Shown piece by piece: positions 9,340-52,706 of a stretch of 64,000 bases of DNA. A model generated the notes under the pieces. The model did no database searches. It was not told the origin of the DNA and was given only the letters and a program-made list of their open reading frames with translations. A program made the position numbers and the translations under genes. Numbering within the stretch: the stretch's first letter is position 1; every line of letters begins with the position of its first letter. Location: positions 6,575,717 to 6,639,716 of the forward strand of contig NC_049989.1 in NCBI RefSeq assembly GCF_000003815.2, read 5' to 3'. This DNA comes from Branchiostoma floridae (lineage: Eukaryota; Chordata; Leptocardii; Amphioxiformes; Branchiostomatidae).

Positions 9340-12300
9340 AATATCGCACTACTTTGAAAGACAACTTTTGATGATATACATGTAGCACCATTGTAACACT
9401 AAGGTCTGTCATGAATACAAACAAATCTTTTGTACACAATTTTGGCTCTAGCTAGTGTCACCTTCAATGATTGTCTCTAAAAATGTCCTGCGTATTATAG
9501 ATTATCAACTCATCAGTGGTATAACAAACTATTTCATCAATGATCATAATGTATTGAAAAAAATGCTAATAGAGAAATCACATTTTGAGATAGCCTTTAA
9601 ATTTATTATTTCAAAAGTCATCATGACAGCCAACAATTTTTTCCAAGATTTAATTACAGCCAAGGCTTCCATTGATGTAAATCCAAGAATGTAGGTTCCA
9701 TACCACAAGGGTTAGAAATGTTAAGTAAACTATTGGGAAGTTGTCAAATTTTGTAAATGTGTCATACTTCCAGCTCAGGCCAGCTGTTATTTCCTGTTAC
9801 CTAGAATTGTTGGAAATCACTTTAATTATTACTTTCAGATTTTGTATTGAACATAGCACCAAGGCTTGTGAACACTATTTTGACAAGAAAATCAACTATA
9901 ATTGTAATATATAATGCGATTTTACATATTACACTGATCATGCACTGTTTACTTCCGAAATTGGCATTTTTTGGGTTAATTGGTGCGAGGTTACAAACCA
10001 GCTACCTTCATCAAGTCGGTCCATGTTAAAGTACTATTATATAGACAGATGCACATTGAATTATGATATTATCATTGCAAATGAAAATGTGTGAGACAAA
10101 CTTTTGGCATCTTGAATACTTTCTATGCTGACACATCCTCAAACTGACTTTCTATACATGATGTACATTGATGCATGTATTTGTTCATGTTATCAAGCAT
10201 GACTTTTTCATGACAGTCTGTATTAGAGCAAGGAGGTTTTTGATTAGAGTTTTATTCTAAATGTTCTTTCTTTATTATTTTGTTCAACATCGATGTCTGC
10301 ATCATGTTAATTTGGCAGGAACATTAAGCAGACAAAATGTAGGAGACATTTTGTTTTATGGTAGCATGAATCCTAAGCATTATACGTAAGAACTAAATTA
10401 AGTCAAATGTTAGTTTGCAAAATCTTGCTGTAATGTCTAAGCTTGGGTGTACTGCCCAGTGTAATTGAGATAGGAAAATGTGCAAATGTTACATTAAATT
10501 TTGTATTTTATCTTGAAATCCATATCATAAAAGGCATGCAACTTTGTCTTCAAATGTAGTAAAGGTTTCTCTGTCCAGGGATAGTATTGTTGATGAGATA
10601 CGAGGTACTTTGTGGAAGAAGATAACATGTAGTTTCTCTAATGTCACGTTTTGATACTTGACTTCCAAGTGTCCCTGAGTGCTACCGTCATGCCTGTGCA
10701 CGTAGCAAAGCCATGATACTATTCAGTTGGTAGGAACAAAAACGTTTTTGTTTCTGAAGACAAGAAATGATATTATAGATCATTTATTGAGAATTCTAGG
10801 AAAGAAAACACGTGGAACGTGATATCAAGATGATATCAACTGATTTTGTGAGAGATGATACTAGTAGATAAGTGATGACACAAAGAAGAAGATGATAGAT
10901 ATATTCCATGATGCTTTTTGGTTGCAAAGGATGTTACTGCAATGCTGATAAGTATGGTAAATGTTCAGTTACAAGTATTAGTTATTGTTGCTGTTGTTTA
11001 AATCATTCCAAAGTCCATGGCAGCTTATGCCATGAATGTATGGTCAAAGAGGTCTGAAAGTATTTTCTATCATGTAACTTTAACATCCATAATTGTAGGG
11101 ATCATACAGTATACTAACATAACATGTACCAGGTAACTCTTGCTGCTGATGCATAGCAAGGGTAATGGATACTGCAATGTATTACTTTTAGGCTTTGGTA
11201 ACTGAAAGACAGTATCTGCTGCAGTCTCATTTCACATGGTGCCATATCCATGTTCATGTAAGCAGCGTCAGGCCATGTCATGAGTCAGTTGCTCCAATGC
11301 TTTGTGCAGTTAAAAGATGTCATTGATGTGATAATGATCAGGTATGAGCACACCGGTGTAATTTCCATAAGCACTGATACACGAATAAAGGTGTATTGTT
11401 CTGATAATCATGATGAATATTTTGCAGTTGGCCAAGTTTGCCATTCATATGATGAAAATAATAGAACACTCTGATGTGATTTCCAGAGGTACATGTACAC
11501 ATCTGTTTTCTTATCCAGGAAGGTAATAACCTTGGTTGTGAAAGGTATGCACCAGACATAAACATGTGGAACGGTTAGATGGCAAAAGGTAATAAAATGT
11601 TTGTGCAGTAAATCTTGTAGTGAGTCACTATATAAAATGAGTTTTGTTAAGTATGTGGGAAATTATTTAGAGGATTTCAAAACATTGAAAATCCTTTCTG
11701 AGTGGGATTTGTAATGAATCTGGTGTTGCTAAGGAAAGGACGTCATATTCCTTGAATTTATTGGCAAAAACTAATACTTTTTTAACTGGCTACCTCAATG
11801 AGTATTGGAATGATGGTCAGCTGGCACTTTCATGTGGAGTGGCTTAAATACTCGGACTCGGTGGTGTTCCCGCAAAAGATAACTCCTGAAGAATTTCTCG
11901 GAATTATTTTGTGATGACAGTTGACGTAACAGGTTAGGATTTGTGAGAAATGTTTTCATACCTCATAGACACCTAAGTAGTTGACAACTTCTGAATAGGA
12001 ATAACTGGTGTGAGACCTTATATGGCAATTTTATGTATTAGAAGTTGTTTATGACACATGTGTACATAAGTACATAATGAACTAGACCTTCATAACACAC
12101 ATACATTTGCCAAATATTCAAGGCTTATTAAGGGGAGTGCCTTTATCAAAGACTTTTGGGTCTCATTCATGTATTACCAGAGTACCTACCAGCAGTAAAA
12201 GGCTGCAAGAAAGTGCATATATAGCGACTTCAACTGACTTCCAGCGTCAAATTGATCAAGACTACCAGACTTCTGGCTGGCCGAATAGTAAATGATGGTA

Positions 12301-12569
12301 AATGGGGGCTTTGGAATACAAGCCCACAACTGTACATCTGCTTGGAGAGTGCGATGCGGTCGATGTACAGAAGGGGGCGTTGCGGCACGGCCCCCTGACA
12401 ATCTTTGATTCCCTTTGTATTTCAAGTGGAAAGAAGTGGGTTTCTGACTTTAAGCAGAGCTGAAGGCGACCCGCACAACCTCCATAACATTTCACGGAGG
12501 GACCAAAAGCAAATGATACAAATGTAGATGCGCCTATGAATTGTTTTGTTTTATCAGACATTCACTCCA
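9340..12569. other. 3' flank and intergenic sequence, no gene seen
   Basis: AT-rich sequence follows the AAA+ stop codon and probably includes its 3' UTR. I could not fix the poly(A) site; an AATAAA occurs near 11384. Small open frames here have no family resemblance and no splice context. Confidence 0.5.
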
Positions 12570-12703
12570 TATTTTGTATTGTATCTTGTGTTGTCAAACT
12601 CTAACAATACAAAATAAAATACACAATAGAAAACCCGATAAAACGACTTAAAAACGTTAAAAAAAACAGCCGTAGCCTAACCTCTGCTTGGAGAGTAGTG
12701 CGA
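12570..12703. repeat. foldback element FB copy 1 (truncated left arm)
   Basis: It has the FB centre (TGTTGTCAAACTCTAACA) and the complete right arm ending CCTCTGCTTGGAGAGT. The left arm is cut off after about 40 bp. It opens the 15-kb satellite domain. Confidence 0.7.
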
Positions 12704-12809
12704 CTCCCAATCGGCTGAAATGGATGGGCGAGCCAGAGCATTAAAAAAAAGATTGGTGGTAGTATATTTTCAGATATATATGTGTAATCCATATTTACAT
12801 GTCCCGAAA

Positions 12810-13252
12810 ATAAAAGCTATATATATGATTTTCCACACATATATACATATGCGCTAAAGAACAGATATATATATGTGACTCTATACACACATATGTGTGC
12901 CGTCAAAGACAGATATATATGTGATTCACCACACACATATATGTGTGCCGTCGAAGACAGACATATGTTCTTAGTGGAGCACATATATATCTGTTTTCAA
13001 CGGCACACATATATGTGTGGTGAATGACACATATATATCCGTTTTGCACGCAGACATATGTGCGTGGTGAAGCACATATATATCTGTTTCCCATGGCAGA
13101 CATATATGTGCTGCATCAGTCACACATATGTCTGGGTGCAAAACATATATATATGTGCTTCACCACGCACATATGTCTGTGTTTTGTAGCACAGATATAT
13201 GTGACGCCGCATCACATATATCTGTGTGTTGTAGCTCAGATATATGTAAACG
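12810..13252. repeat. palindromic 24-bp satellite array A
   Basis: About 18 quasi-palindromic 14-mers of the form CASAYATATRTSTG are separated by 8-10 bp linkers. Neighbouring cores are inverted relative to each other, so each linker can be the loop of a hairpin, for example cagatatatgtg-ACGCCGCAT-cacatatatctg. Some linkers recur inverted across the array (CGTGGTGAAG on one side, CTTCACCACG on the other), giving a second, larger dyad. Confidence 0.85.
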
Positions 13253-13272
13253 ATAAATATTACTAGCAGTTT

Positions 13273-13877
13273 GGCCAAACAAAGGAGGTCATAAGAGGTC
13301 ACCACGTAACTGAAAGCCAGACTGTGGTGGAAAAAACGGATGTTGCCAGAGGATTGGGTTTTGATTTAAAAGTTTCCCATTACGTTAATGAAAGATTTAA
13401 GAATACAGGAGTTGTTTTTATTTAGACCGCAACTGCTTTAGCGAGCCACCTGTTTTTCTTCTTCAGCTCCAGACATGTAGAATTTAATCTCTTTTTAAAA
13501 ATGACGTGAGGAAATAAGTCCTCTGACTGGCCGACTCCTCTAGCGTACTATTGACTATATTTGTCCAATTTCCACTATTAGACTACCGATCACCAATCCG
13601 GGGACCCTAATAAAGGCAACCAGGGGCGAGTTTAATATTCCCACGAACTTGCAGGCCTGCAGGCCGATTTGAGCTTTCATGAATAAACAATGGTTTAAAC
13701 AAACAAACACACAAACAAACATACAAAGAACTCCCCCGTGGGTCCTACATTCAGCGCGACCGCGTGCTTCTCTACTCTCCAAGCAGAGGTTAGGCTCAGG
13801 CTTTTTTTTTATAGCTTTTTTCATAAAGTTTTCATCAGGCTTTTTATTTTGTACTGTATCTTGTGTTGTCAAACCCT
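13273..13877. repeat. 605-bp module, copy 1 of a near-identical duplication
   Basis: It reads the same as 17131-17735 at an offset of exactly 3858 bp, including flanking unique-looking sequence, a (CAAA)n tract and the left half of a foldback element. A diverged third copy with deletions starts near 19573. The 105-residue minus-strand frame in it is identical in both copies only because the DNA is; I do not regard it as a gene. Confidence 0.85.
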
Positions 13878-13972
13878 AACAATACAAGATACAATACAAA
13901 ATAGAGAGCCCGATAAAAAACGACTAGAAAAAATTTAAAAAACAGCCGGAGCCTAACCTCTGCTTGGAGAGT
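13774..13972. mobile_element. foldback element FB copy 2 (199 bp)
   Basis: Two arms of roughly 90 bp are inverted around TGTTGTCAAACCCTAACA. The ends are ACTCTCCAAGCAGAGGTTAG and its reverse complement. It has no coding capacity. Within the satellite domain no target-site duplication is visible, as expected if it spread by array duplication. Confidence 0.8.
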
Positions 13973-14084
13973 AGTGTGACTCCCAATCGGCTGAAATGGA
14001 TGGGCGAGCCAGAGAATTAAAAAACAGATTGGTGGTAGTATATTATCAGATATATATGTGTAATTCATATTTACATGTCCCGAA

Positions 14085-14518
14085 AATAACAGATATATAT
14101 ATATATGATTTTCCACAGATATATATGTACTGTAAAGAACAGATATATATGTGACTCTATACACACATACGTGTGCCGTCAAAGACAGATATACATGTGA
14201 TTCACCACACACATATATGTGCGCCGTCGAAGACAAACATATGTGCTTAGTGGAGCACATATATATCTGCTTTCAACGGCACACATATATGTGTGGTGAA
14301 TTACACATATATATCCGTTTTGCACGCATACATATGTGTGTGCGGAAGCACATATATATCTGTGTCCTGTGGCATACATATATGTGCTGCACCAGTCACA
14401 CATATGTCTGCGTGCAAAACAGATATATATGTGCTTCACCACGCACATATGTCTGTGTTTTGTAGCACAGATATATGTGACGCCGCATCACATATATCTG
14501 TGTGTTGTAGCACAGATA
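14085..14518. repeat. palindromic 24-bp satellite array B
   Basis: It has the same linker order as array A, starting GTGACTCTATAC and ending TGTTGTAGCACAGATA. It lies between two foldback elements. Confidence 0.85.
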
Positions 14519-14566
14519 CAAAGAATTCCTCCGTGGGTCCAAGATTTAGCGCGACCGCGTGCGTCT

Positions 14567-14765
14567 CTTTTCTCCAAGCAGAGGTTAGGCTCGGCTGTTT
14601 TTAGCGTTTTCTTAATCGTTTTTATCGGGCTTTCTATTTTGTATTTTATCTTGTGTTGTCAAACCCTAACAATAAAAGATACAATACAAAATAGAAAGCC
14701 CGATAAAAAACGACCAAAAAACGTTAAAAAACAGCCGGAGCCTAACCTTTGCTTGGAGAGTAGTG
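14567..14765. mobile_element. foldback element FB copy 3
   Basis: The left arm starts TCTCCAAGCAGAGGTTAGG and the right arm ends CCTTTGCTTGGAGAG. The arms remain nearly perfectly complementary around TGTTGTCAAACCCTAACA. Confidence 0.8.
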
Positions 14766-14874
14766 CAACTCCCAATCGGCTGAAATGGATGGGCGAGCCA
14801 GAGCATTAAAAACAGATTGGTGGTAGTATATTATCAGATATAAATGTGTTAATCACATATACATGTTCCAAAAA

Positions 14875-17098
14875 TAACATATATATATATATATATATAT
14901 ATGACTTTCCACACATATATGTGTGCTGTAAAGAAAAGATATATATATATGTGTGACCCTATACACACATATGTGTGCCGTCAAAGACAGATATCTATGA
15001 GATTCACCACACACATATATTTATTATCTCTTTATTTCAGGCTCTCACTGGCCCATATGACGTAGGGACAAACATGAAAAACAAAGAATATGTACAACAT
15101 TTTAAGACAAACTGACAATATTATGGCTATGTGTAGAGGCGGCGCCAGAGATTGGTGAAAAATGAGTTCTTGTAAAAACAGTCGGACCTAAGTACGGACT
15201 GTATAATGGTATTAGTAGAATTAAAAAGCCTATGTACAAAGGAGTGGCACTGTTTACGCCATCTGGCGTCGAAGGTATCGGTATGATTGCACACGAACAT
15301 TTCACTTGTGCTGCAAGGTGTAGGGAAACTCATAATTATACGGAAACAATTGTTGTAGGCAATGCGACATTTCGACAGAACAGTCGTACGAAAAGAATTC
15401 CATAACTGCGCACCAAAAGTTGGGAGCAGTGAGATGTGAACAGTGTTTTCTTAACAGTAGGTGAACAAAGACAAAATTTTCGAATTATAATATTTGCACG
15501 ACAATACAGACCCCTTAGCTGGGCAAGAATACAGTCATCATCACTCAGTCTGTCATTAATAGCAATTCCAAGATATACAAATGATGTCACAAATCTCAAA
15601 CACTCTTCATACAGTTTGATCGACGGGAGCCGATGTAAAAGTGGCAAACTAGCACTCGGCAAGTACATGCAGCATGTCTTGTTTACATTGAATAATAAAT
15701 CATTTTCTAAACCAAAGTCTTCACAAGTACTTACAAGTTTTTGCAGAGACTTAAGGCTAGGACATAACAAACACATGTCATCAGCGTAAAAAAGATGGTT
15801 CCCAAGAAAGCCTCCTATATAGCAACATACTTTAGTACAACTGAGTCTCGAACTTAAGTCATCCATATATGCATTGAATAGTAGCGGGGATAGCAGACTC
15901 CCTTGCCTTACACCATTTGATACATAAAAGCAGGGAGACAAAACATTGTTCCATCTAATACACATTGTTTGGTTCTGGTACCAGTAAACCAGAAACCTCA
16001 CCAAATACACCGGGACCTTTCTGTCAAGAAGTTTTTTTTAAAAAGGGTCCAATGGTTTACCCTATCAAAAGCCTTGGAGGCGTCCAAAAAACAAGCAAAA
16101 ACTGGAGAGCCGAGACCCCGGCAGTACTCAATTGTCTGTTTTAAATTAAATACACACATGTCAAGACCATGTCCACGTTTGAAACCAAACTGATGAGCAG
16201 TGGTTTGAAGATATGGCTCTAGCCTGTTCAATAAAACAGCCTCCAGAACTTTGGATATTGCTGATGCAATTGCTATTGGTCTATAGTTATCACTATCAGA
16301 AATATTACCAGTTTTGTTTTTAACAACCGGAATGATGGCAGTATCTAACATACTTTTCGGAATGAAGTTATGGACAAGCGCGGCTAAAACAATAGTGATA
16401 TGCATATGCTAAGCTTAGGTCACGCATATTTAAGGTGTTCATTACTGATTTCGTCAGACCCTACCGCTTTTCCATTGGGTAAGTTTCTAATTATATCATA
16501 TACTTCCACAGCAGAGATTTGCATCCCCGAATCAAATTCAAAAGGACAACCTGTCGACAAATCAGACATAACAGCAGGTCTATGTATCTCACTATTAACA
16601 GAGTTCAACAGTTAATCAAAATGCGACTCTTCCACATGTCTGCAATGTGCTCAGCCCCAGAGCAACCATCTATAGTATTAGGTATTACAGAATGAGAGGA
16701 TTTAGTACTACGGACCTTTTTCCAGAATTCTCTAGTATGGCCGGCATTGAAACTTTTCACAGTCGAGTCGGCTCTTGCCCTGTTTTCCTCCTGTTTACAG
16801 TGTGCCGTCGAAGACAGACATATGTGCTTATTGGAACACATATATATCTGTTTTCAACGGCACACATATATGTTTGGTGAATTACAAATATATATCTGTT
16901 TTGCACGCAGACATATGTGCGTGGTGAAGCACATATATATCTGTGTCCTGCGGCAGACATATATGTGCTGCACCAGTCACTCATATATCTGGGTGCAAAA
17001 CAGATGTATATGTGCTTCACCACGCACATATGTCTATGTTTTGTAGCACAGATATATGTGACGCCGCATCACATATATCTGCGTGTTGTAGCACAGAT
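14875..17098. repeat. palindromic satellite array C, split by a LINE
   Basis: The array runs 14875-15020 and 16800-17098. At 15020 the unit reads ...cacacatatat and it resumes at 16800 as gtgtgccgtcgaagac. Together these restore the unit order seen in arrays A and B. The interruption is the LINE at 15021-16799. Confidence 0.85.
15021..16799 (-). pseudogene. 5'-truncated LINE with reverse transcriptase, inserted in the satellite
   Basis: Minus-strand frames 16841-16605, 16608-16420, 16405-15998, 16010-15336 and 15333-15127 read successive parts of one ORF2-like protein. They include LPNGKAVGSDEISNEHLKYA, then IIPVVKNKTGN and NYRPIAIASAISKVLE, then FLDASKAFDRVNHW, GVRQGSLLSPLLFNAYMDDL and the catalytic FYADDMCLL, then the post-RT FVYLGIAINDRLSDDD. 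The endonuclease part is absent, and frameshifts separate the segments. An AATAAA lies near the element's 3' end (about 15031). It inserted within one 24-bp unit of the array, so it is younger than the array. Confidence 0.88.
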
Positions 17099-17130
17099 AT
17101 AATATATGCAACGATACCTTAGTAAAGGCT

Positions 17131-17735
17131 GGCCAAACAAAGGAGGTCATAAGAGGTCACCACGTAACTGAAAGCCAGACTGTGGTGGAAAAAACGGATG
17201 TTGCCAGAGGATTGGGTTTTGATTTAAAAGTTTCCCATTACGTTAATGAAAGATTTAAGAATACAGGAGTTGTTTTTATTTAGACCGCAACTGCTTTAGC
17301 GAGCCACCTGTTTTTCTTCTTCAGCTCCAGACATGTAGAATTTAATCTCTTTTTAAAAATGACGTGAGGAAATAAGTCCTCTGACTGGCCGACTCCTCTA
17401 GCGTACTATTGACTATATTTGTCCAATTTCCACTATTAGACTACCGATCACCAATCCGGGGACCCTAATAAAGGCAACCAGGGGCGAGTTTAATATTCCC
17501 ACGAACTTGCAGGCCTGCAGGCCGATTTGAGCTTTCATGAATAAACAATGGTTTAAACAAACAAACACACAAACAAACATACAAAGAACTCCCCCGTGGG
17601 TCCTACATTCAGCGCGACCGCGTGCTTCTCTACTCTCCAAGCAGAGGTTAGGCTCAGGCTTTTTTTTTATAGCTTTTTTCATAAAGTTTTCATCAGGCTT
17701 TTTATTTTGTACTGTATCTTGTGTTGTCAAACCCT
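17131..17735. repeat. 605-bp module, copy 2 of a near-identical duplication
   Basis: Partner of 13273-13877. Identity ends abruptly at GGCCAAAC on the left and after CAAACCCTA on the right. Sharp edges and no visible difference suggest recent duplication, gene conversion or an assembly artefact. Confidence 0.85.
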
Positions 17736-17828
17736 AGCAATAAGAGATACAATACAATATAGAGAGTCCGATAAAAACGACTAAAAACGTTAAAAAAGCA
17801 GCCGGAGCCTAACCTCTGCTTGGAGAGT
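17632..17828. mobile_element. foldback element FB copy 4
   Basis: The left half is identical to FB copy 2, being part of the duplicated module. The right half has diverged, ending CCTCTGCTTGGAGAGT. The mosaic suggests conversion or unequal exchange with a breakpoint at the hairpin centre. Confidence 0.8.
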
Positions 17829-17944
17829 AGTGCGACTCGCAATCGGCTATAATGGATGGGCGAGCCAGAGCATTAAAGAACAGATTGGTGGTAGTATATT
17901 ATCAGATATATATTTGAAATCACCTAAACATGTTCCAAAAATAA

Positions 17945-18330
17945 CAGATATATATATATATGATTTTCCACACATATATGCGTGCCGTCAAAGACAGATA
18001 TATATGTGATTCACCACACACATATATGTGTGCCGTCGAAGACAGACATATGTGCTTAGTGGAGCACATATATATCTGTTTTCAACGGCACACATATATG
18101 TGTGGTGAATTACACATATATATCTGTTTTGCACGCAGACATATATGTGTGCGGAAGCACATATATATCTGTGTCCTGTGGCAGACATATATGTGCTGCA
18201 CCAGTCACACATATATCTGCGTGCAAAACAGATATATATGTGCTTCACTACGCACATATGTCTATGTTTTGTAGCACAGATATATGTGACGCCGCATCAC
18301 ATATATCTGCGTGTTGTAGCACAGATATAA
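17945..18330. repeat. palindromic 24-bp satellite array D
   Basis: It keeps the same linker series (CCGTCAAAGA, ATTCACCA, CCGTCGAAGA, TTAGTGGAG, TTTTCAACGG and so on) and ends TTGTAGCACAGATATAATATATGC. Confidence 0.85.
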
Positions 18331-18523
18331 TATATGCAAACGACACCTTAGTAAAGGCTAGCAGGAGCAAGTTGAATATTCCCGTGAACTTGCAGGCCTG
18401 CAGGCCGAATTGAGCTTTCATGAATAAACAACGATTCCAACAAACAAACAAACAAAGAAACAAACAAACACACAAGCAATTCCCCCGTGTGGTCCTAGAT
18501 TTAGCGCGACCGCGTGCGTCTCT

Positions 18524-18727
18524 ACTCTCCAAGCAGAGGTTAGGCTCCGGCAGTTTGTTTTTTTTAGCTTTTTTTAAATAGTTTTTTATCGGGCTTCTAT
18601 TTTATATTGTATCTTGTGTTGTCAAACCCTAACAATACAGGATACAATATAAAATAGAGAGTCCGATTAAAGCTTTAAAAAAAAAGCTTAAAAAAAACAG
18701 TCGGAGCCTAACCTCTGCTTGGAGAGT
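18524..18727. mobile_element. foldback element FB copy 5
   Basis: Full-length arms start ACTCTCCAAGCAGAGG and end CCTCTGCTTGGAGAGT around TGTTGTCAAACCCTAACA. It is preceded by the (CAAA)n tract that accompanies most copies. Confidence 0.8.
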
Positions 18728-18913
18728 AGTGCGACTCCCAATCGGCTGAAATGGATGGGCGAGCCAGAGCATTAGAGAACAGATTTGTGGTAGTATATTA
18801 TCAGATATATATTTGAAATCACATAAACATGTTCCAAAAATAACAGATTTTTATATATATATATGATTTTCCACACATATATGTGTGCTGCAAAGAACAG
18901 ATATATGTGTTAC

Positions 18914-19236
18914 GCCAAAAATAGTTACTCAATATAATATGGTTTTGAAACGGTCAGACGTTTCGGATAGAATCCACTATCCTTCGTCAGTGACACTGAA
19001 GAGATCTGGAAGAAACAGGTCTTTTATACTCTAACTATTAATGAAGACAATTTCAGATGTCCAATAGGAAAAGGTTGTAAGACAATTCAGACTGAAGACA
19101 GTTTGGATTCCAAAGAAAACAAAGCTAAGCCAAAGTCAAGCTGAAGACAATTTGGATTTCAAAGGATAGCAAGGCTAAGACACAGTTAATGCAAATGAGT
19201 CAATTAGCTCCTGTTGTTCTAGTTACAGGAGTTAAA
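18914..19236 (-). mobile_element. Penelope-like terminal fragment with TATA motif (323 bp)
   Basis: It is flanked by a perfect 15-bp direct repeat (18899-18913 and 19237-19251). On the minus strand it carries a TATAAAAG motif about 25 bp upstream of the sequence CACTGACGAAGG ... CCGAAACGTCTGACC. Related sequences occur at 33540-33700 (minus) and 51370-51510 (plus). This recurring terminal region resembles that of Penelope-like retroelements. It has no reverse transcriptase, so family assignment is an inference. Confidence 0.5.
18953..18994 (-). ncRNA. hammerhead-ribozyme-like motif
   Basis: On the minus strand: GUCA, CUGACGA, an extra A, stem GGAUAG/CUAUCC with loop UGGAUU, GAAAC, GUC, UGAC. 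GUCA pairs with UGAC as stem I. CUGANGA and GAAA are the hammerhead core words. Stem III is reduced to about one pair, and the extra A before stem II departs from the canonical core. Hammerheads with minimal stem III are known in Penelope-like elements. Activity is not shown. Confidence 0.4.
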
Positions 19237-19572
19237 AGATATATGTGTTACTTTATACACACATATGTGTGCCGTCAAAGACAGACATATGTGCTTAGTG
19301 GAGCACATATATATCTGTTTTCAACGGCACACATATATATCTGTTTTGCACGCAGACATATGTGCGTGCGGAAGCACATATATATCTGTGTCCTGTGGCA
19401 GATATGTATGTGCTGCACCAGTCACACATATATCTGCGTGCATAACAGATATATATGTGCTTCACCACGCACATATGTCTATGTTTTGTAGCACAGATAT
19501 ATGTGACGCCGCATAACATATATCTGTGTGTTGTAGCACAGATATATGTAAACGATGAATATTACTTGCAGT

Positions 19573-19850
19573 TTGGCCAAACAAAGGAGGTCATAAGAGG
19601 TAACTGAAGGCCAGACTGGATTTTGATTAAAAATTTTCCCATTACGTTAATCGAAGATTTGAGAATATTAGACCGCAACTGCTTTAGCGAGCCACCTGTT
19701 TTTCTTCTTTAGCTCCAGACATGTAGAATTTAATCTCTTTTTAAAAATGACGTGAGGATATAAATCCTCTGGCCGGACGACTCCTCTAGCGTACTATTGA
19801 CTCTATTTGTTTAAATTCTACTACTAGACTACCGATCACCAATCCGGGGA
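19573..19850. repeat. diverged, deleted copy of the 605-bp module
   Basis: It starts GGCCAAACAAAGGAGGTC like the copies at 13273 and 17131. It lacks several internal blocks and carries substitutions, so it is an older duplicate. Confidence 0.7.
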
Positions 19851-19986
19851 GCCCTAGTAAAGGCTAGCAGGAGCGAGTTGAATATTCCCGCGAACATGCA
19901 GGCCTGCAAGCCGATGTGAGCTTTCATGAATAAACAATGGTTCAAACAAACAAACAAACAAAGAAACAAACACACAAACAATTCCC

Positions 19987-20177
19987 CCGAGGTTAGGCTC
20001 CGGCGGGTTGTTTTTTTTAGCTTTTTTAAAAATAGTTTTTATCGGGCTTTCGATTTTGTATTGTATCTTGTTGTCAAACCCTAGCAATACAAGATACAAT
20101 ACAAAATAGAGAGTCAGATAAAAAAACGACTAAAAAACGTTAAAAAACAGTCGTAGCCTAACCTCTACTTGGAGAGT
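19987..20177. mobile_element. foldback element FB copy 6 (left end truncated)
   Basis: The left arm begins inside the terminal repeat at GAGGTTAGGCTCC. The right arm runs to CTACTTGGAGAGT. The centre is TTGTTGTCAAACCCTAGCA. Confidence 0.75.
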
Positions 20178-20234
20178 AGTGCGACTCCCAATCGGCTGAT
20201 ATGGATGGACGAGCCAGAGCATTAAATACAGATT

Positions 20235-20815
20235 GGTGGTAGTATATCATCAGATATATATGTGTAATTCACATATACATGTTCCAAAAATAACAGATAC
20301 ATATGATTTTCCACACATATATGTGCGATACAAAGAACAAATATATATGTGACTCTATACACATTATGTGTGCCGTCAAAAGCAAAAATATATGTGTAAT
20401 TAACCACACACATATCTGTGTGCCGTCGAAGACAGACATATTGGCTTAGTGGAGCACATATATATCTGTTTTCAACGGCACACATATATGTGTGGTGAAT
20501 TACACATATATCTCCGTTTTGCACGCAGACATATGTGTGTGCGGAAGCACATATATATCTGTGTCCTGGGACAGACATATATGTGCTGCATCAGTCACAC
20601 ATATGTCTGCGTGCAAAACAGATATATATGTGCTTCAGCACACACATATATATGGCGTGAAAACGGATATACATGTATGATTCACCACACATACATGTGT
20701 GCCGTAGAAAACAGATATATATGTGCTCCACTAAGCCAATATGTCTGCCGTAAAATTGGTTTTTGAAGTCACACATATATGTGTGTGATGAATCACATAT
20801 GTATCTGTCTTCGCC
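20235..20815. repeat. palindromic satellite array F with a large-scale dyad
   Basis: The first half contains CCGTCGAAGACAGACATATT, GGCTTAGTGGAG and TTTTCAACGG. The same blocks return inverted in the second half (CTCCACTAAGCC, AATATGTCTGCCG, GATTCACCACACA). The 24-bp hairpins are therefore nested inside one inverted duplication of several hundred bp. Confidence 0.8.
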
Positions 20816-21074
20816 AAAATGATTTAACCTTTTTAACACTTGTGTATTAATTGTTTGTCATTAATCATGGGAATATGGTCCTCATTTGCATAATTTCTAT
20901 TAGCCGATCATCTCCTCCAACCAAAGTAAAAGACATACACAATCTATGTTCAGAAAGAAGGCTTTAATCGCATTTCCTGATAGCCTATGCAAATGATGTC
21001 CTCATCTGCATAATCAATGTCCAATGATGTTCACCTGTACACTTGCAAATGCCATAAGTACGAAATTCTTGTCA

Positions 21075-22025
21075 TTTACCACAATGGGATTATGATCAAT
21101 GGTTTATTCAAACATACATATACATACATACATGGACATACTAAAACAACGTTGCAGCCTTTTATACAATGCTGTAAAACTGGCTGAATTAAGTTAGTTT
21201 TAGTCTTAAAAACATCTTAATATATACAACATAATATATTTAACAATAATTGATGCACACAGAGGCTAACATGAGCAGTAATCAAGATTCCATGTAGTAG
21301 TGATGTGACGTTATAAACAGGCTATAAATAAGTATTTAAGAGTGTGGACAAGTATGGAATAGCACTGTTTCTGTACCTATCATGTCTGGCAAAAAAAAGG
21401 TATGCTAAGCTCGAGCCCTCGTTTTAAATCTCTGTTGTGAATTTCATTACGAGTAGCTGGCAACCAGCTTCGAAAAATGGGTGAATTAAACATAGATTTC
21501 GCGAACTTAAGACATAGAAATTCTCTTCTTGCTTTTAAAGTGTTCATATTTAGCCTACATAGAGCTTCGGTATAACAAGTATATTCACTGCCCAGAATGA
21601 TTCTTAGCGCACGCTTTTGTATGCGTTCTAATGCATCCGATTGTTGACATGTTAAACCTGGATGCCATACCGGGGCCGCATATTCCATGATAGGTCGGAC
21701 GTAGAATAGGTAAATCTCACAGAGATCTTCAGTGCAGACACCAAATTTAAAGCGTTTTAGTTTTTTAAGCAAAAAAAGGCGACAGCTTCCTTTTTTTTAT
21801 AATAACGTTAGTATGCTTTCCCCATTTCAAGTCCACAGACATCCAGATACCTAGTATACAGGCATCTTCAGTGTACTCTAAGGCTTTGCCATTCAGTAAT
21901 AACACAGGAGGTAGAGGGGGATCCTTCATGAAGGAAATACACATTAATTTGCACTTGTCTTCGTTCAATGTCATACGGTTTTCGGATGACCATGTATCTA
22001 GTTGGTTAATTGTTGTATTATAGCA
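21075..22025 (-). pseudogene. 5'-truncated LINE fragment (RT C-terminal region)
   Basis: Minus-strand frames read LNEDKCKLMCISFMKDPP and YTEDACILGIWMSVDLKW, then after a frame break IYLFYVRPIMEYAAPVWH and LERIQKRALRIILG. This is the typical segment from the thumb region to the C-terminus of a non-LTR reverse transcriptase protein. Its 3' end is on the left. It is inactive and truncated. Confidence 0.8.
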
Positions 22026-22539
22026 TTTTATGCAAATAATGCAAATTATGTCCGTATTTGCATATCATCTATCTTTCAACAGTCTTTTCTTCCTCATTTA
22101 CAGATGTCACATGTTGCAATAGTTCTATGGTAGAACAGAGCGCGTTTAGACAATTTCCTAATTGAATATACAAATCAGATTCCGATTTCCATAATTGATA
22201 TTGAAGTATGTAAAGCATCATGTAAGCTACCTACATACCAAAAAAAACATGACGATCCGTCAAACATTTCTTGAGTTATTCCCTTTTAAAGTCTGACATT
22301 AAACCAGTCCCTGCATTTCCAAAACAAACCACTAGGAGGCCCAAACCTACACCAATTTTTCTCGACCCGATGAGCTATCTAACGCTCAAAAATCATGTCC
22401 AGAACTCGAGATATTCTACTCGGAAGTTCCGCTGCAGTACCGTAAAAAGTCACTAGGAGGGGCCAAAATCTAATCGTGTTTAGGTCTGATCAAGACCTAC
22501 CCACATACCAAACATTAATATAATCCATGCAGGAGTTCT

Positions 22540-22544
22540 TGCAC

Positions 22545-22587
<43 letters not shown>

Positions 22588-22610
22588 CACACGCACACAC
22601 ACACACACAA
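22540..22610. repeat. (CA)n microsatellite
   Basis: Nearly pure CA dinucleotides with a few G interruptions, at the end of a dispersed element. Confidence 0.9.
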
Positions 22611-22704
22611 ACGCTACCCAACGTATAACCGGCAAAGGTAACTAGCAAATAGATCTATAGTCAATAGCACGGAAGAAGATTCGGCCGTCCAGATGAGTTA
22701 TTTC

Positions 22705-24035
22705 GGCTTACATATATCTGTGCTACAAAACACAGATATATGTGTGATGCGGCGTCACATATATATGTGCTGCAAACACAAACATATGTGTGGTGCGGCG
22801 TCACATATGTCACATTAGAGATTGCGATTCAGAATAATCACCGATTGTCCTAGGAGCCGAGATCGCGATCGCAGTTTGTCCTGGCTAGGACAAACTGCGA
22901 CTGGGATCTGTCCTAGGACAATCGGTGATTCTATTAGTACAGATTGCAATCGGGATCTGACCTAGGAGAAACTCCGATCCTAACTCAAATGATGAAGATA
23001 AAGGAAACAGACTGCGATCGGGATCTGTCATAAGACAAAAGTTTACAGCGATTCTAGTAGGACAATCTCCAATTCTACTAGGAGAAATTCTGATAGATAA
23101 NNNNNNNNNNNNNNNNNNNNNNNNNNNNNNNNNNNNNNNNNNNNNNNNNNNNNNNNNNNNNNNNNNNNNNNNNNNNNNNNNNNNNNNNNNNNNNNNNNNN
23201 NNNNNNNNNNNNNNNNNNNNNNNNNNNNNNNNNNNNNNNNNNACTGGACTCTCTTAGGATAGACATGATAATCCAATGATATGTGAAAGATGACAAAAGG
23301 TGATCAAACAATGTGTCAGAATGCAAATTTTAAGGTGTCAAGATATTACAGTTTCACAACGATTTAGTACATTTCAATAGTCAGTAAACATATACTGAAT
23401 CATTTCACAAATTTTGAAGAAGAATTACAACTGTAAAGGCATCAAACAGATGCCCAAATATCAATCACAGTTTCAAGATATTACTTACAATTCCACACCT
23501 AATCAGTACAGACACAAGTCTGGTATCCTTCAGTAGTCATGGTTTATCAAAGTATTGCTGTTTCTTTTAACTTAGCATCATTTGAGTTTGTATCGGAGTT
23601 TGTCCTAGGGCAGATCCCGATTGATATTGCAATCTGTACTAACAGAATCGCAGATTGTCCTGGGACAGATCCCGATCGCATGCGCAGTTTGTCCTAGCCA
23701 GGACAAACTCCCGATCGCGATCTCTCCTAGGACAATCGGCGATTGTTCTGAATCGCAATCTCTACTGTGACATACATGTGTGACACCGAACCACACATAT
23801 ATCTGTGTTTGTAGCACATATATATGTGGCGCCGCATCACACATATATCTGTGTTTGGAGCACACATATATGTGACGCCGCATCACATATATATCTGTGT
23901 TTGGGGCACATATATGTGTGACGCCACATCACACATATATCTGTGTTTGGAGCACAGATATATGTGACGCCACATCAGATATATATCTGTGTTTGGAGCA
24001 ACATATATATGACTCCACATCACATATTCTGTATT
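22705..24035. repeat. large inverted repeat with satellite and CTAGGACAA arms
   Basis: The left arm (22705-22990) has ACATATATGTG hairpin units and then blocks ATTGCGATTCAGAA, GATTGTCCTAGGAG, TTTGTCCTGGCTAGGACAAA and TAGTACAGATTGCAATC. The same blocks return in inverted order at 23585-23780 and are followed outward by more hairpin units to 24035. The arms are themselves made of short palindromes such as GATCGCGATC. A 142-bp N gap (23101-23242) lies in the spacer. It looks like a foldback element with compound ends. Confidence 0.8.
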
Positions 24036-24087
24036 TTGATCCCCATGTCAATGGCAACACTTGATATTGAATCTCCTCTGGCTGGCC

Positions 24088-24170
24088 GATTCGCGTAGCT
24101 CAGTCGTAGAGCTGTCTTCACTCTTTACATCCAGGGGCCGCAAGTTCCTGTGAGGAATCTTGATAGAAGC
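24088..24170 (+). pseudogene. degenerate tRNA-like sequence
   Basis: GCGTAGCTCAGTCGTAGAGC resembles a tRNA D arm with its A box. A weak B-box-like GCAAGTTCCTG follows. The stems do not fold well, so it is a tRNA relic or SINE head at best. Confidence 0.3.
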
Positions 24171-24249
24171 GGTTTGTTCCATCAAGGACGTTTAGTAGGT
24201 CAAGTTAACCGGCCTTCTTAGGACCCTTCTAAACCTCAGTTGCGCAACT

Positions 24250-24343
24250 GTTACACGATGGCCGAGCGGTCTAATGGTAAAGTTCTGCACGCTCAACGTG
24301 CAGTCAGTTTCCGCAGGTGTGAGTTCGAATCCCAGTTGTGACA
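24250..24343 (+). pseudogene. tRNA-Leu-like pseudogene or SINE head
   Basis: ATGGCCGAGCGGTCTAA matches the class II D arm of tRNA-Leu, followed by CTCAA in the anticodon-loop position, a variable-arm stretch and GAGTTCGAATCCCAG as T arm. Mismatches in the T stem and acceptor stem argue against a working tRNA. The anticodon would be CAA if the canonical alignment holds. Confidence 0.55.
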
Positions 24344-24631
24344 ATGTGTTTTTTTCTTTGCTCAACAAATCCCATTTTATGTCTTTTGATAGAAAGAGAC
24401 CAATTCAATACTTTAAAGTTTTCTTTTCTTGTGATTTTGTTAAACATCCAGGCATTTTTGTCTAAAAATACGGCCAATTTTTTCTAAAGGTTTATTGTTT
24501 CATTTTATATACACAACTCTTTTGTCTTGTGACTAGGGCATGGAAACCCAGGTTTGGGATTTCTTTATTTTTATTTTCAAACATCCACAACGTTAAAGTG
24601 ACGTAGGTTAAAACAGTTGAATATTACCGTC

Positions 24632-24864
24632 AATATGTGTGGTGAATGACACATATATAAACGTTTTGGACGCAGACATATGTGTGTGCTGAATCACATA
24701 TATATCTGTTTCCCATGGCAGACATATATGTGCTGCACCAGCCACACATATATCTGCGTGCAAAACAGATATATATGTGCTTCACCACGCACATATGTCT
24801 GAGTTTTGTAGCACAGATATATGTGACGCCGCCTCACATATATCTGTGTGTTGTAGCACAGATA
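24632..24864. repeat. palindromic 24-bp satellite array I
   Basis: It has the right-half linker series only (TTTGGACGC, TTTCCCATGG, CTGCACCAGC, CTTCACCACG, ACGCCGCCT). Confidence 0.8.
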
Positions 24865-24999
24865 CAAAGAATTCCCCGTGGGTCCAAGATTTAGCGCGAC
24901 CGCGTGCGTCTCTGCAGGTTTTGTACGAGGCCAGGGAAGCTCACCAGCCGCCGGGGTAATGGGCCACACCAGGTAGGATTTTCACGCGGTTAGACTTTG

Positions 25000-25090
25000 C
25001 CCTGTGTTGTCAAACCCTAACAATAAAAGATACAATACACAATAGAAAGCCCGATAAAAAAAGACCAAAAAACATTGTAAAAAAACCAGC
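25000..25090. repeat. foldback element FB copy 7 (fragment)
   Basis: It contains the centre and part of the right arm (AAGCCCGATAAAAAAAGACC). The terminal repeats are replaced by unrelated GC-rich sequence on both sides. Confidence 0.65.
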
Positions 25091-25438
25091 CAGCCCTGCC
25101 CCGGCAGCTGAAAAACCTACCGGGGGGGAATGAATATCCCGGCGGCGGAGAGCTACTCTGAGCTACTCTGGCCCCGTAGAGACTAATTACGGTAGGCCGT
25201 GCCAGCCGTGCCAGCAGTAGACTGGATTCCAGGTTACACAGATATATGTAAACGATACCTAGTAAAAGCCTAGTAAAGGCAGGAGCGAGTTGAATATTCC
25301 CGCGAACTTGAAGGCCTTCAGGCCGATGTCAGCTTTCATGAATAAAAAATGGTTCAAACAAACAAACAAACAAACAAACAAACAAACACACAAATAATTC
25401 CCCGTGGGTCCTAGATTCAGCGCGACCGCGTGCGTCTC

Positions 25439-25605
25439 TAATCTCCAAGCAGAGGTTAGGCTCAGGCTGTTTTTTAGCGTTTTTTAGTCGTTTTTATCGG
25501 GCATTTTTTTTGTATTCTATCTTGTGTTGTCAAACCCAAACAATACAAGATACAATACAAAATAGAAAGCCCGATGAAAACGACTAAAAAACGTTAAAAA
25601 AACAG
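25439..25605. mobile_element. foldback element FB copy 8 (right arm cut)
   Basis: The left arm from ATCTCCAAGCAGAGG and the centre are complete. The right arm stops at AAAACAGC, where a mariner-like end begins. Confidence 0.7.
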
Positions 25606-25772
25606 CAACTTACCCTCTGATTTGGAATAAACGAATGCCTGTAAAGTAATGACTGCATTGATTTGAAATTTGAAGGATATGGATAAAAGGCTCTATACTA
25701 TGAAGTTGTGCCATAAAATTTGAGGTGTGCTTATTATTTCTTGGTGAGGCCGAGAACTTCTTGATCACCCCT
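25606..25772 (-). mobile_element. mariner-like terminal fragment
   Basis: Read on the minus strand it begins with a TA followed by CGAGGGGTGATCAAGAAG, which resembles a mariner-type terminal repeat. It is about 170 bp and non-coding. It replaces the outer part of a foldback arm. Confidence 0.45.
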
Positions 25773-25983
25773 CGTATATCCGTTTTGCACGCATACATAT
25801 GTGTGTGCTGAAGCACATATATATCTGTGTCCTGTGGCAGACATATATGTGCTGCACCGGTCACACATATATCTGCGTGCAAAACATATATATATGTGCT
25901 TCACCACGCACATATGTCTGAGTTTTGTAGCACAGATATATGTGACGCCGCATCACATATATCTGTGTGTTGTAGCACAGATA
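25773..25983. repeat. palindromic 24-bp satellite array J
   Basis: Right-half linker series, from CCGTTTTGCACG to TTGTAGCACAGATA. It is followed by ATTCCCCGTGGGTCC and a foldback element. Confidence 0.8.
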
Positions 25984-26032
25984 CAAAGAATTCCCCGTGG
26001 GTCCAAGATTTAGCGCGACCGCGTGCGTCTCT

Positions 26033-26230
26033 ATTCTCCAAGCAGAGGTTAGGCTCGGCTGTCTGTAGCGTTTTCTTAATCGTTTTTATCGGGCTTTCTA
26101 TTTTGTATATTTTATCTTGTGTTGTCAAACCCTAACAATAAAAGATACAATACACAATAGAAAGCCCGATAAAAAACGACCAAAAACGTTTAAAAAAAAA
26201 CAGCCAGAGCCTAACCTCTGCTTGGAGAGT
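26033..26230. mobile_element. foldback element FB copy 9
   Basis: Complete arms from ATTCTCCAAGCAGAGG to CCTCTGCTTGGAGAGT around TGTTGTCAAACCCTAACA. Confidence 0.8.
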
Positions 26231-26304
26231 AGTGCGACTCCCAGTCGGCTGAAATGGATCATTAGCAAGAGCATTAAAAAACAGATTGGTGGTAGTATAT
26301 TATC

Positions 26305-26774
26305 AGATATATATGTGTAATTCACATTTACATGTCCCGAAAATAGCAGATATATATATATGATTTTCCATACATATATATGTGCTGTAAAGAACAAAGA
26401 TATATGTTACTCTATATACACATATGTGTGCCGCCAAAGACAGATATGTATGTGATTCACCACACATATATATGTGTGCCGTCGAAGACAGCCATATGTG
26501 CTTAGTGGAGCACATATATATCTGTTTTCAACGGCACACATATATGAGTGGTGAATTACACATATATATCTGTTTTGCACGCAGACATATATGTGTGCGG
26601 AAGCACATATATATCTGTGTCCTGTGGCAGACATATATGTGCTGCACCAGTCACACATATATCTGCGTGCAAAACAGATATATATGTGCTTCCCCACGCA
26701 CATATGTCTATGTTTTGTAGCACAGATATATGTGACGCCGCATCACATATATCTGTGTGTTGTAGCACAGATAC
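26305..26774. repeat. palindromic 24-bp satellite array K
   Basis: Full linker series like arrays A, B and D. The following ATTCC is the start of the usual lead-in to a foldback element, but a 618-bp N gap begins there. Confidence 0.85.
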
Positions 26775-27402
26775 AAAAAATTCCNNNNNNNNNNNNNNNN
26801 NNNNNNNNNNNNNNNNNNNNNNNNNNNNNNNNNNNNNNNNNNNNNNNNNNNNNNNNNNNNNNNNNNNNNNNNNNNNNNNNNNNNNNNNNNNNNNNNNNNN
26901 NNNNNNNNNNNNNNNNNNNNNNNNNNNNNNNNNNNNNNNNNNNNNNNNNNNNNNNNNNNNNNNNNNNNNNNNNNNNNNNNNNNNNNNNNNNNNNNNNNNN
27001 NNNNNNNNNNNNNNNNNNNNNNNNNNNNNNNNNNNNNNNNNNNNNNNNNNNNNNNNNNNNNNNNNNNNNNNNNNNNNNNNNNNNNNNNNNNNNNNNNNNN
27101 NNNNNNNNNNNNNNNNNNNNNNNNNNNNNNNNNNNNNNNNNNNNNNNNNNNNNNNNNNNNNNNNNNNNNNNNNNNNNNNNNNNNNNNNNNNNNNNNNNNN
27201 NNNNNNNNNNNNNNNNNNNNNNNNNNNNNNNNNNNNNNNNNNNNNNNNNNNNNNNNNNNNNNNNNNNNNNNNNNNNNNNNNNNNNNNNNNNNNNNNNNNN
27301 NNNNNNNNNNNNNNNNNNNNNNNNNNNNNNNNNNNNNNNNNNNNNNNNNNNNNNNNNNNNNNNNNNNNNNNNNNNNNNNNNNNNNNNNNNNNNNNNNNNN
27401 NN

Positions 27403-27535
27403 ATCTGTGTCCTGTTTCCGAATATGTGCTGCACCAGTTACACATACATCTGCCTGCAAAACATATATATATATGTGCTTCACCACGCACATATGTCTAT
27501 GTTTTGTAGCACAGATATATGTGACGCCGCTTAAC
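27403..27535. repeat. palindromic satellite array L (end of the domain)
   Basis: The right-half series resumes after the N gap at 26785-27402 and ends with ACGCCGCTTAACA. The satellite domain stops here. Confidence 0.75.
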
Positions 27536-27579
27536 ATTTAACATTGATGCAAGTTTGGTACCACAGTCTAGTCTATACC

Positions 27580-27690
27580 AGACTCCATAGGTCGCTGGCC
27601 GGAAAACCATAGGATGAAACAAATATAGGTAAACCGGCCAGAGAAGTACAGCCGGCTAGGGAACAGCTTGCGACCTACGGAGGAAATGAT
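27580..27690. repeat. short inverted-repeat element with CATAGGTCGC ends
   Basis: CTCCATAGGTCGC on the left is mirrored by GCGACCTACGGAG on the right, with GGCCGG and CCGGC blocks inside. It is probably a small MITE. Confidence 0.4.
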
Positions 27691-27829
27691 TGTTCTGGCC
27701 GGCTGACTCCCCTAGTGTAGTATGACTCTATTTGTCCAATTGCTACATTTAGACCACCGATCTACGAAGCCTGGTAGAGGCTAACCTTGGTCCTCATCAC
27801 ACCGTTGCCGCATACTTTAACATTGGACT

Positions 27830-28270
27830 AACATGACGATATTTTCTATGATCATTGGTGACGACAAAAGACAAACGGTTGGAGTGTTTGCAGCCCAAAC
27901 GTATAATTATATGATACATATACGTATATATGATTTGCAGCACACACCAATTTTGCAGATGATGTCTTTATTTGCAAAGTTTCCAATTAAAGTTAATCTC
28001 ACTCTCTTCATGTTCTAAAGTCACACAATTATGCAAAGTAGCTCATTCTTTGCATATGTAGCGTGAGCTTATATCCATCATCACTTAAGCTATGAACATA
28101 CAAATAGTTATGAAGATTTGTCAAACATTTCTGGAGTTCTACCCTTCAATTTCTCAAACAAAACATGGGACCCAAGCCGACGGCAATTCTTTACGACTAG
28201 TAAGAGCTTTCTACTCTAAAAGAATCATGACCATAGCTTGTGACAGTAATAATTTTCAGAAATTTATGAC
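27830..28270. repeat. fragment of the TTTGCATA-rich dispersed element
   Basis: It shares words such as CAAACATTTCTGGAGTTCT and ATCATGACCATAGC with the elements at 20860 and 31561. No gene is seen in it. Confidence 0.45.
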
Positions 28271-28289
28271 TGAGTTATCATGCATGTAA

Positions 28290-28830
28290 ATATGTGAGTG
28301 GGTGTCTGTGTGCGTAATTATGTGTGTGTGTGTAAAGCGAAACATATAAGAACGTGACATACTATATATATAGGTGTGTCTGTGTGCGCAAGTGTGTGTG
28401 TGAAGCTGAAACAAATGAGTGTGTACTTTTAAAGCTGAAATATATATTGGTGTCCTACCATGTATATGTGTATGAGTATAGAGAAACATATAAGAGCGTG
28501 TGCTTCGATGTGTATGTGTATGTGTGCAGACGAACATATATGCGCTTGTCCTACCATATATATGTGTGTGTGTGTAATGCTGAAGATATATGAGTGTGTC
28601 CTACCATGTATATGTGCATGTGTATAGAGAAACATATAAGAGCGTGTGCTTCGATGTGTTATGTGTATGTGTGCAGACGAACATATATGTGTTTGTCCTA
28701 CCAGATATATATGTGTGTGTAAAGCTGAACATATATGTGTTTGTCCTACCAGATATATATGTGTGTGTAAAGCTGAACATATATGAGTGTGTTAATCGAT
28801 GCCTTATATATGAGGAAATCCTTGTCTTTA
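28290..28830. repeat. minisatellite, ~48-bp unit with ACATATATGTG core
   Basis: The last units are nearly perfect: GAACATATATGTGTTTGTCC then TACCAGATATATATGTGTGT then GTAAAGCT, repeated with a 48-bp period (28679 and 28727). Earlier units are more diverged. The period is twice the 24-bp spacing of the large satellite and the core is the same, but the linkers differ. Confidence 0.8.
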
Positions 28831-29160
28831 TATGTAAGTAATTTTGCAACACTTGGCCCCCAATAGCGTGACCCGTGTCTATGTACATACTACATGTCAC
28901 AGAATGTGCAGGGAACGCCACAGTTTATGAGTGGCACAGCCTGGACCAGTTTACTGCACCGCCCTGTCGCACCCATGTCTGTAACCAATCCAATTCAGAT
29001 CCAGTCCGAAGTTAAGTTTTACAGTTGGGCTTATCCATTTAGGTCACAGAAAGGATAGACTGGAAACACTACAAACAAACGGCCACGCCCCCTTCATCAC
29101 CACTTGTAAACGTAAGCGCATCTTCTGGGAGGAGTAAGGGGCTGTCGCATCTAGCAATAT
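28831..29160. other. intergenic, nothing recognised
   Basis: No open frame, repeat or RNA signature that I can support. Confidence 0.4.
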
Positions 29161-37982: not shown

Positions 37983-38062
<80 letters not shown>

Positions 38063-52695: not shown

Positions 52696-52706
52696 AGGTA
52701 CTGTGT

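Follow-up and report, generated by a model that had tools for sequence, protein, structure and literature searches.

A palindromic satellite of Branchiostoma floridae as a probable end arm of a giant DNA transposon of the foldback type

In a 64,000-nucleotide stretch of the Branchiostoma floridae genome (assembly GCF_000003815.2, contig NC_049989.1, here C11, positions 6575717-6639716; hereafter the window), a 15-kb domain starting at window position 12570 had been described from its letters as a palindromic satellite of chained hairpins interleaved with a foldback element. This domain very probably forms the right-hand end arm of a giant DNA transposon of the foldback type, whose arms would have grown by tandem duplication. 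The sequence supports this through a fixed outer end, an inverted partner of that end 67 kb away, target-site duplications (TSDs), dispersed relatives bearing the same end and tandem amplification inside the arm. The composite transposon put forward in the original prediction comes close, in that a large DNA transposon with TSDs appears to have one of its arms in this domain, the unit being larger than claimed. Our searches of open-access literature gave no description of this element; Repbase and subscription journals were outside the search, and members may be catalogued there. The features are summarized in Table 1.

The element ends sharply with a sequence that begins TATTGGGGGCC, and an inverted copy of this end lies 67 kb away. 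The domain had been closed at position 27540, whereas the real end, common to other copies, is at 28865. Among eight tails compared, three abut runs of N and five enter their flanks ungapped, and the latter flanks had no mutual match over 1500 bp; four of these five tails stop at the identical base. The end is found in both orientations, and the two C11 ends at 6537229 and 6604581 face each other with an exact 7-bp GCGTGAC on both sides. Similarly, a relative on C2 (other sequences of the assembly are labelled in the same way) has facing ends 31.1 kb apart with GAAATAC on both sides, while other pairings among the six readable flanks agreed in at most 4 of 7 letters. The left and right arms of the C11 element are collinear and inverted (15 segments, 7582 bp, mean identity 88.0%), and with their internal tandem repeats they show the long inverted collinear arms by which foldback elements are recognized. 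Across the inner portion of the right arm (6588286-6598485), 17 windows of 600 bp were compared with other copies. The neighbouring element C11:6454946-6511889 gave the best match for 11 of them and the C2 element for three, in both cases in the same orientation and at 96.5-98.9% identity; two were best matched elsewhere in their own arm and one in an inverted copy. Windows of the outer part had best matches to copies in either orientation, and the arms of other elements reached 96-100% identity in places. A feature map of the C11 stretch displayed 77 array matches in both orientations, 45 of them over 400 bp, and the outer tail was also found, in part, on C9. A nested insertion of the interior was considered and rejected, as the sequence around both junctions (4.8 and 5.1 kb compared) presented array-type similarity and neither separate inverted ends nor a duplication.

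We searched the 513-Mb genome with the 28-bp end motif, allowing up to three mismatches; genome counts given here are lower bounds. The search yielded 79 matches against none for a backward control. At distances of up to 80 kb, 28 pairs of matches face inward, where random placement would give 0.27, and there are one outward pair and 23 unpaired matches. The inward pairs span 6.0-67.4 kb, with many at 10-25 kb, and the 67-kb element is the longest. The flanks of ten dispersed pairs included seven exact duplications of 7 bp (GTCCTAC, GTACGGG and CACAGAC) or 6 bp (GTCAGG, CAGGGG, CCCATG and CCCATC), two pairs in poly-C and one without duplication. Adding C11 and C2, exact 6-7-bp duplications were present in 9 of the 12 pairs with examined flanks (out of 28 pairs), four of 6 bp and five of 7 bp, one of the latter being readable as 9 bp with a one-base boundary shift. 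The termini TATTGG..CCAATA were found at all 12 of these pairs, partly by selection, since the search pattern starts with TA. Facing pairs of these ends are spread over many chromosomes, and to judge from them the C11 element would seem to be the biggest in a widely distributed family of large transposons.

An ordinary locus-specific complex satellite, in which unequal crossing-over amplified a unit rich in transposable elements and the transposon-like edges are secondary, would be in keeping with the direct head-to-tail units, with conversion-like identity (499 bp at 100%) and with the clustering of most copies in a single 170-kb segment of C11. Nevertheless, this explanation is quite unlikely, because amplification accounts for the inside of the arm and not for its ends, and because the fixed end with unrelated flanks, its inverted partner, the exact duplications at two loci and the 28 inward pairs all speak for a transposon.

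The arrays inside the arm were analysed by searching for cores within two mismatches of three 12-mers. As many as 175 of the 186 matches in the window fall in 12757-28866, where 141 of 174 successive steps measure 21-26 bp; when the domain was simulated under a Markov-1 model (50 simulations per measure), core matches averaged 4.4 (maximum 10) and no spacing fell in that range. The array consensus was split by hand into 21 cores, of which 16 are polar, and all 16 alternate strictly +,-,+,-, in line with the inversion of successive cores described earlier; therefore, the true repeat of the arrays is a 46-48 bp inverted dimer, in agreement with the 46-48 bp period that TRF gives for the window. 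The ten main arrays align over their whole length at 86-96% pairwise identity and are copies of one ancestral sequence of ~480 bp, which rules out a simple satellite of independent arrays. Because all ten descend from that sequence, they have a common linker order and are collinear end to end, as had been proposed. Random linker order in other copies, named at the outset as an observation that would refute the proposal, was not encountered: the window arrays are collinear, and the near-full-length genome matches listed (40 of 94 candidates scored) have 88-100% identity over the whole array. Linkers also recur inverted, for instance TTTTGCACG/CGTGCAAAA in the array consensus, and the inverted arms 13048-13089/13141-13182 (42 nt) are 95% complementary, again as first noticed. 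On a larger scale, array F is inverted beyond about 20618 (arms 20433-20562/20618-20747, 130 nt, 89%), and 476 bp of array I (26295-26770) have a 100% identical inverted copy at C11:6448581-6449056, 153 kb away. Beyond the main ten, the tail and an inner element (22.7-24.0 kb) hold further core arrays, and the estimate of at least a dozen arrays at ~24-bp spacing stands if the two end arrays of that inner element are added to the ten.

The repeated unit of the arm consists of a palindrome array, a foldback element and a spacer ending in a CAAA tract, and such units build the region 12570-28865; the alternation of ~200-bp foldback and CAAA spacer with the arrays had thus been read correctly. 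The foldback is a miniature inverted-repeat transposable element (MITE) whose copies in the domain are flanked by GTGCGTCTC/GTGCGACTC or variants, with 6-8 of 9 letters in agreement among window copies. This common flank pair fits a single insertion preceding the amplification, and most simply the MITE would have inserted once and then been copied along with the unit. A dispersed relative at window 52706-52997, with an N gap inside, has an exact 9-bp duplication (GGTACTGTG), and in the printed sequence the copy at C5:21759758 has CGGTCCAGG on both flanks, while that at C8:22035029 presented flanks without a matching duplication. These C5 and C8 copies were the ones outside the C11, C2 and C14 blocks among the 40 matches scored (of 1483 first-look candidates), nearly all of which lie in those blocks. 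Two spacers, 13272-13770 and 17130-17628, are 100% identical over 499 bp, whereas the adjoining foldback region is only 94.6% identical, which may be an effect of the assembly or the result of conversion or exchange in the recent past.

Some further elements are lodged in the arm. The long interspersed nuclear element (LINE) fragment of array C was judged 5'-truncated and is also present at C11:6495472-6497241. The inner element at 22705-24031 carries a 46-bp palindromic minisatellite at each end, in opposite orientations, around a palindromic GGACAATCGG middle, and its copies elsewhere have the same flanks. Beside it, window 24255-24345 is by eye tRNA-like or SINE-like (short interspersed nuclear element) and recurs beside its other copies. 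The insertion 18913-19237 in array E has GATATATGTGTTAC on both sides and contains a motif that we take to be Penelope-like.

Table 1. Coordinates of the features described in the text (window positions unless C11 is given; TIR, terminal inverted repeat).
Feature	Position	Strand	Remarks
Putative whole transposon, ~67.35 kb	C11:6537229-6604581		
Probable right terminal arm, about 16.3 kb	12570..28865	+	Inner edge within foldback MITE, outer edge is element end
Element end motif TATTGGGGGCCAAGTGTTGCAAAATTAC	28838..28865 (C11:6604554-6604581)	-	Exact match
Right TSD copy GCGTGAC, 7 bp	28866..28872	.	Left copy adjoins C11:6537229
Right part of 34-kb interior (C11:6554137-6588285)	1..12569	.	
Predicted exon pieces of one or more genes, including AAA-like ATPase	392-622, 1057-1263, 2597-2815, 5201-5365, 6017-6151, 8578-8871, 9172-9336	+	Our own gene model
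Palindrome array A	12757..13262	+	
Palindrome array B	14033..14518	+	
Palindrome array C, first part	14822..15026	+	Array split by LINE fragment
Palindrome array C, second part	16802..17104	+	
Palindrome array D	17887..18332	+	
Palindrome array E, first part	18787..18912	+	Array split by insertion
Palindrome array E, second part	19238..19562	+	
Palindrome array F	20236..20807	+	20236-20650 used in array alignment
Palindrome array G	24633..24867	+	Partial
Palindrome array H	25773..25986	+	Partial
Palindrome array I	26289..26776	+	
Palindrome array J	27403..27545	+	Partial, begins after N gap
Foldback MITE, TIR TACTCTCCAAGCAGAGG	13773..13973	.	
Further foldback MITE copies	14568-14762, 17631-17829, 18523-18728, 26032-26231	.	
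More diverged foldback MITE copy	19989-20179		
Cut foldback MITE copies	at 12570, 25003, 25439		
Spacer	13272..13770	+	Ends in CAAA tract and 50-bp motif
LINE fragment with reverse transcriptase (RVT_1)	15030..16800	-	Secondary insertion in array C
Smaller inverted-repeat element inside arm	22705..24031	.	Limits approximate
48-bp subterminal minisatellite	28319..28807	+	Directly inside element end

The arrays fold strongly. The strand of array I gave -221.1 kcal/mol as RNA against -131.3 in 100 shuffles (z -16.8), and z -12.9 against 100 shuffles as DNA, the predicted structure being mostly long hairpins that each span several cores. This folding, the strict alternation of polarity and a weak covariation excess in the core palindromes (double changes 27/500, score 12/500) could be taken as signs of a selected RNA or DNA hairpin array, acting as a small-RNA source or as a replication or recombination structure, to which the transposon context is incidental. 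We regard this as very unlikely, since palindromic repeats alone give strong folding, no Rfam family matched within the window at gathering thresholds, and the linker stems, compared with the core palindromes, lack the expected marks: their covariation (double changes 348/500, score 195/500) did not exceed that of shuffled controls, the arms on either side of a linker were not more complementary than other pairings (4.95 vs 4.84 of 6, permutation p 0.28), and the pairing was slightly better when slid by +2 (84.6 vs 81.7%). These comparisons lend no support to selection on the chain of linker hairpins. We therefore read the folding as a by-product of the palindromic repeats, and the hairpins are ordered and distinct because one ancestral array was copied, not because each hairpin was selected. 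The sole ARAGORN call, a tRNA-Cys at 23769-23847, sits in palindromic minisatellite and was taken as spurious.

Outside the window, the interior of the element bears an integrase gene on its minus strand, split by introns. One open reading frame (ORF) of it matches Pfam rva_4 at 30.4 bits and the joined pieces at 33.9 (cut-off 26); against a C18 paralogue, five segments lie in order along an uninterrupted 433-residue stretch (E-values from start to end 0.001, 0.026, 4.1, 5e-7 and 0.063, three of them weak singly). For this paralogue, no PDB relative was found below E 0.8. The adjoining AAA-like ATPase pieces match below the Pfam cut-off, as does a helix-turn-helix among the interior ORFs. One intron of the integrase gene (C11:6565181-6565571) holds a repeat of ~390 bp, apparently a MITE with inverted ends, that occurs in at least 39 other places at 92-97% identity among the matches listed. 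Elsewhere in the genome, 6 of 13 rva_4 matches are on C6 (32 of 32 candidates scored), as are five of six non-self AAA matches, with one integrase/AAA pair 9 kb apart, and the closest relative of the integrase is at C6:26773069 (52% identity). The C6 matches to rva_4 and the AAA-like protein cluster at 19.5-27.8 Mb, possibly another family of large elements; the TATTGGGGG end motif was listed once on C6 (17520093).

The integrase and AAA genes may serve to mobilise a single master copy, or the element may have captured them as cargo. In the bacterial systems Mu, Tn7 and IS21, a DDE enzyme works with an AAA regulator, and the 67-kb copy could by analogy be a family master moved by the rva_4 integrase and the AAA-type ATPase, the cores serving as docking sites. 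The adjacency of the two genes and the concentration of relatives of both on C6 support such a two-protein arrangement; we nevertheless consider it unlikely, as paired end motifs enclose none of the C6 matches and neither gene was found in the other family intervals. In fact, none of the other 27 paired intervals contained an AAA-like match or, by eye, any of the closest integrase relatives, and rva_4 was rejected as a family-wide transposase with 0 of these 27 (32 of 32 candidates scored). The integrase region was likewise rejected as a multi-copy gene, its sole full-length match being itself and the rest short dispersed repeats (40 of 4962 candidates scored). Membership in the Polinton/Maverick family, to which many pairs of 10-25 kb and duplications of 6-7 bp might point, is extremely unlikely, since DNA_pol_B_2 had 13 genome matches (9 of 9 candidates scored) and none in the 28 paired intervals. 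Type B DNA polymerase matches were noted at C5:15319610-15321658, C7:18086085-18087998, C19:827017-828927, C12:14279203-14283185 and C9:963584-971109, four of the five loci with open frames over 1000 aa; these are presumably Polintons.

Several observations weigh against a giant foldback transposon of this kind. N gaps interrupt the region C11:6426001-6639716 (214 kb) 26 times, 12 of them being exactly 100 N long; two of these 12 lie inside the interior of the element, about 10 kb of the C2 element is a run of N, and the structure and length of the arms are provisional. The fifth ungapped tail (C11:6434481) deviates in its last bases, the C14 element had no second end in the stretches read, the C13 pair is without exact duplication and the duplication evidence covers 12 of the 28 pairs. 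Only one of the 28 intervals, that of the 67-kb element itself, contains rva_4, which is no more than a candidate for the mobilising enzyme. The arrays, moreover, were seen only at C11:6.436-6.604 Mb, C2:13.784-13.797 Mb and C14:15.948-15.951 Mb among the matches listed (40 of 94 first-look candidates scored), and therefore the 16-kb type of arm belongs to a few copies and not to the family. The gaps bear also on whether the 67-kb element is false, pieced together in the assembly from allelic or repeat contigs of a highly heterozygous animal. The 12 of 26 gaps with exactly 100 N, the recurrence of blocks of 95-99% identity in direct and inverted order and the large N gaps in or beside the C2 and C14 blocks could be invoked for this. 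The duplications that match at both far ends speak against a simple chimera: flanks of 7 bp are unlikely to agree by chance at two independent loci (4^-7 each), and the dispersed pairs repeat the pattern of end plus duplication, so that an artefact of this type is highly improbable. Some local order within the arms may still be false, and the domain itself includes N gaps at 23101-23242 and 26785-27402.

Among known systems, IS3EU/GingerRoot elements have TA..TA termini (fungal TAYGG..CCRTA), TSDs usually of 6 bp and an integrase-related DDE transposase (PMC10045372, PMC12730594). The ends of the amphioxus element, TATTGG..CCAATA, resemble theirs, its duplications are of 6-7 bp, and the 67-kb copy also has a gene with an integrase core; in contrast, five of the nine exact duplications are of 7 bp, the arms reach 16 kb and the integrase was not found in the other 27 paired intervals. 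Galileo, of the P superfamily, has 7-bp duplications (some of 8) and long repetitive arms with tandem repeats that differ in number between the arms of one copy (PMC4168063, PMC3573991), and its arm repeats are said to hold secondary transposase binding sites (PMC3573991). Its 7-bp duplications and long, internally repetitive arms with tandem repeats are found here too, whereas the longest D. willistoni copy measures 9021 bp and its arms 4246 and 4680 bp (against ~16 kb), and the target consensus GTATTAC and a P-type transposase are features of Galileo (PMC4168063, PMC3573991). In the foldback element Tetris of Drosophila virilis, modular arms with repeats that seed TIR-220 satellite-like arrays (PMC4079207) recall the amphioxus arms, although its repeats are of 220 bp, its arms of up to 1735 bp and its duplications of 8-10 bp, compared with a 46-48 bp repeat, ~16-kb arms and 6-7-bp duplications. 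In structure, Galileo and Tetris come closest to the amphioxus element, though their arms are much shorter. Teratorn is also a mobile element of tens of kb with long inverted repeats, with a piggyBac-like transposase and herpesvirus genes (PMC6431247), none of which were recognised among those interior ORFs that were compared with Pfam (17 queries). The oyster Helentron, a Helitron-type element, carries dispersed satellite-like arrays (PMC7492417), as does the amphioxus element, which unlike it has inverted ends and duplications.

A plausible history for the giant transposon can be outlined from these data. A DDE-type transposase would bind the ~28-bp ends, cut or join at TATTGG/CCAATA and duplicate 6-7 bp of the target on integration. 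The palindromic 24-bp cores most likely started as a subterminal 46-48-bp inverted-dimer minisatellite; the unit of array, MITE and spacer would then have been tandemly duplicated until the arms reached about 16 kb, and unequal exchange and conversion, acting between arms and between copies, would have reshuffled the units (e.g. 13272-13770/17130-17628). The ordered, distinct linkers could accordingly be seen as the fossil of a single ancestral array copied whole, and the cores, by analogy with Galileo, are candidate secondary sites for the transposase or a host factor as well as a recombination substrate. Helitron-type elements are rolling-circle elements; the rolling-circle or fold-back replication suggested in the original prediction is not borne out, the 6-7-bp duplications pointing to DDE-type integration.

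Outside the element, a degenerate CCCTAA-type telomere-like tandem repeat lies about 4 kb beyond its end (window 32803-32988), followed by minus-strand ORFs with SPRY and death-effector (DED) domains (37055-44151) and by exons of a 2OG-Fe(II) oxygenase-like gene (56717-59446), with DIOX_N above and 2OG-FeII_Oxy below the cut-off.

These results turn an unexplained palindromic satellite into what is probably an arm belonging to a very large DNA transposon of an animal, with exact ends, and the 28-bp motif lets the family be collected from other assemblies. The arms of about 16 kb go well beyond the foldback arms with which they were compared (4.7 kb in Galileo and 1.7 kb in Tetris). The element would thus provide a test case for the growth of foldback arms by tandem duplication, for the origin of satellites from transposon arms, and for whether pairs of integrase and AAA genes move giant elements in animals.

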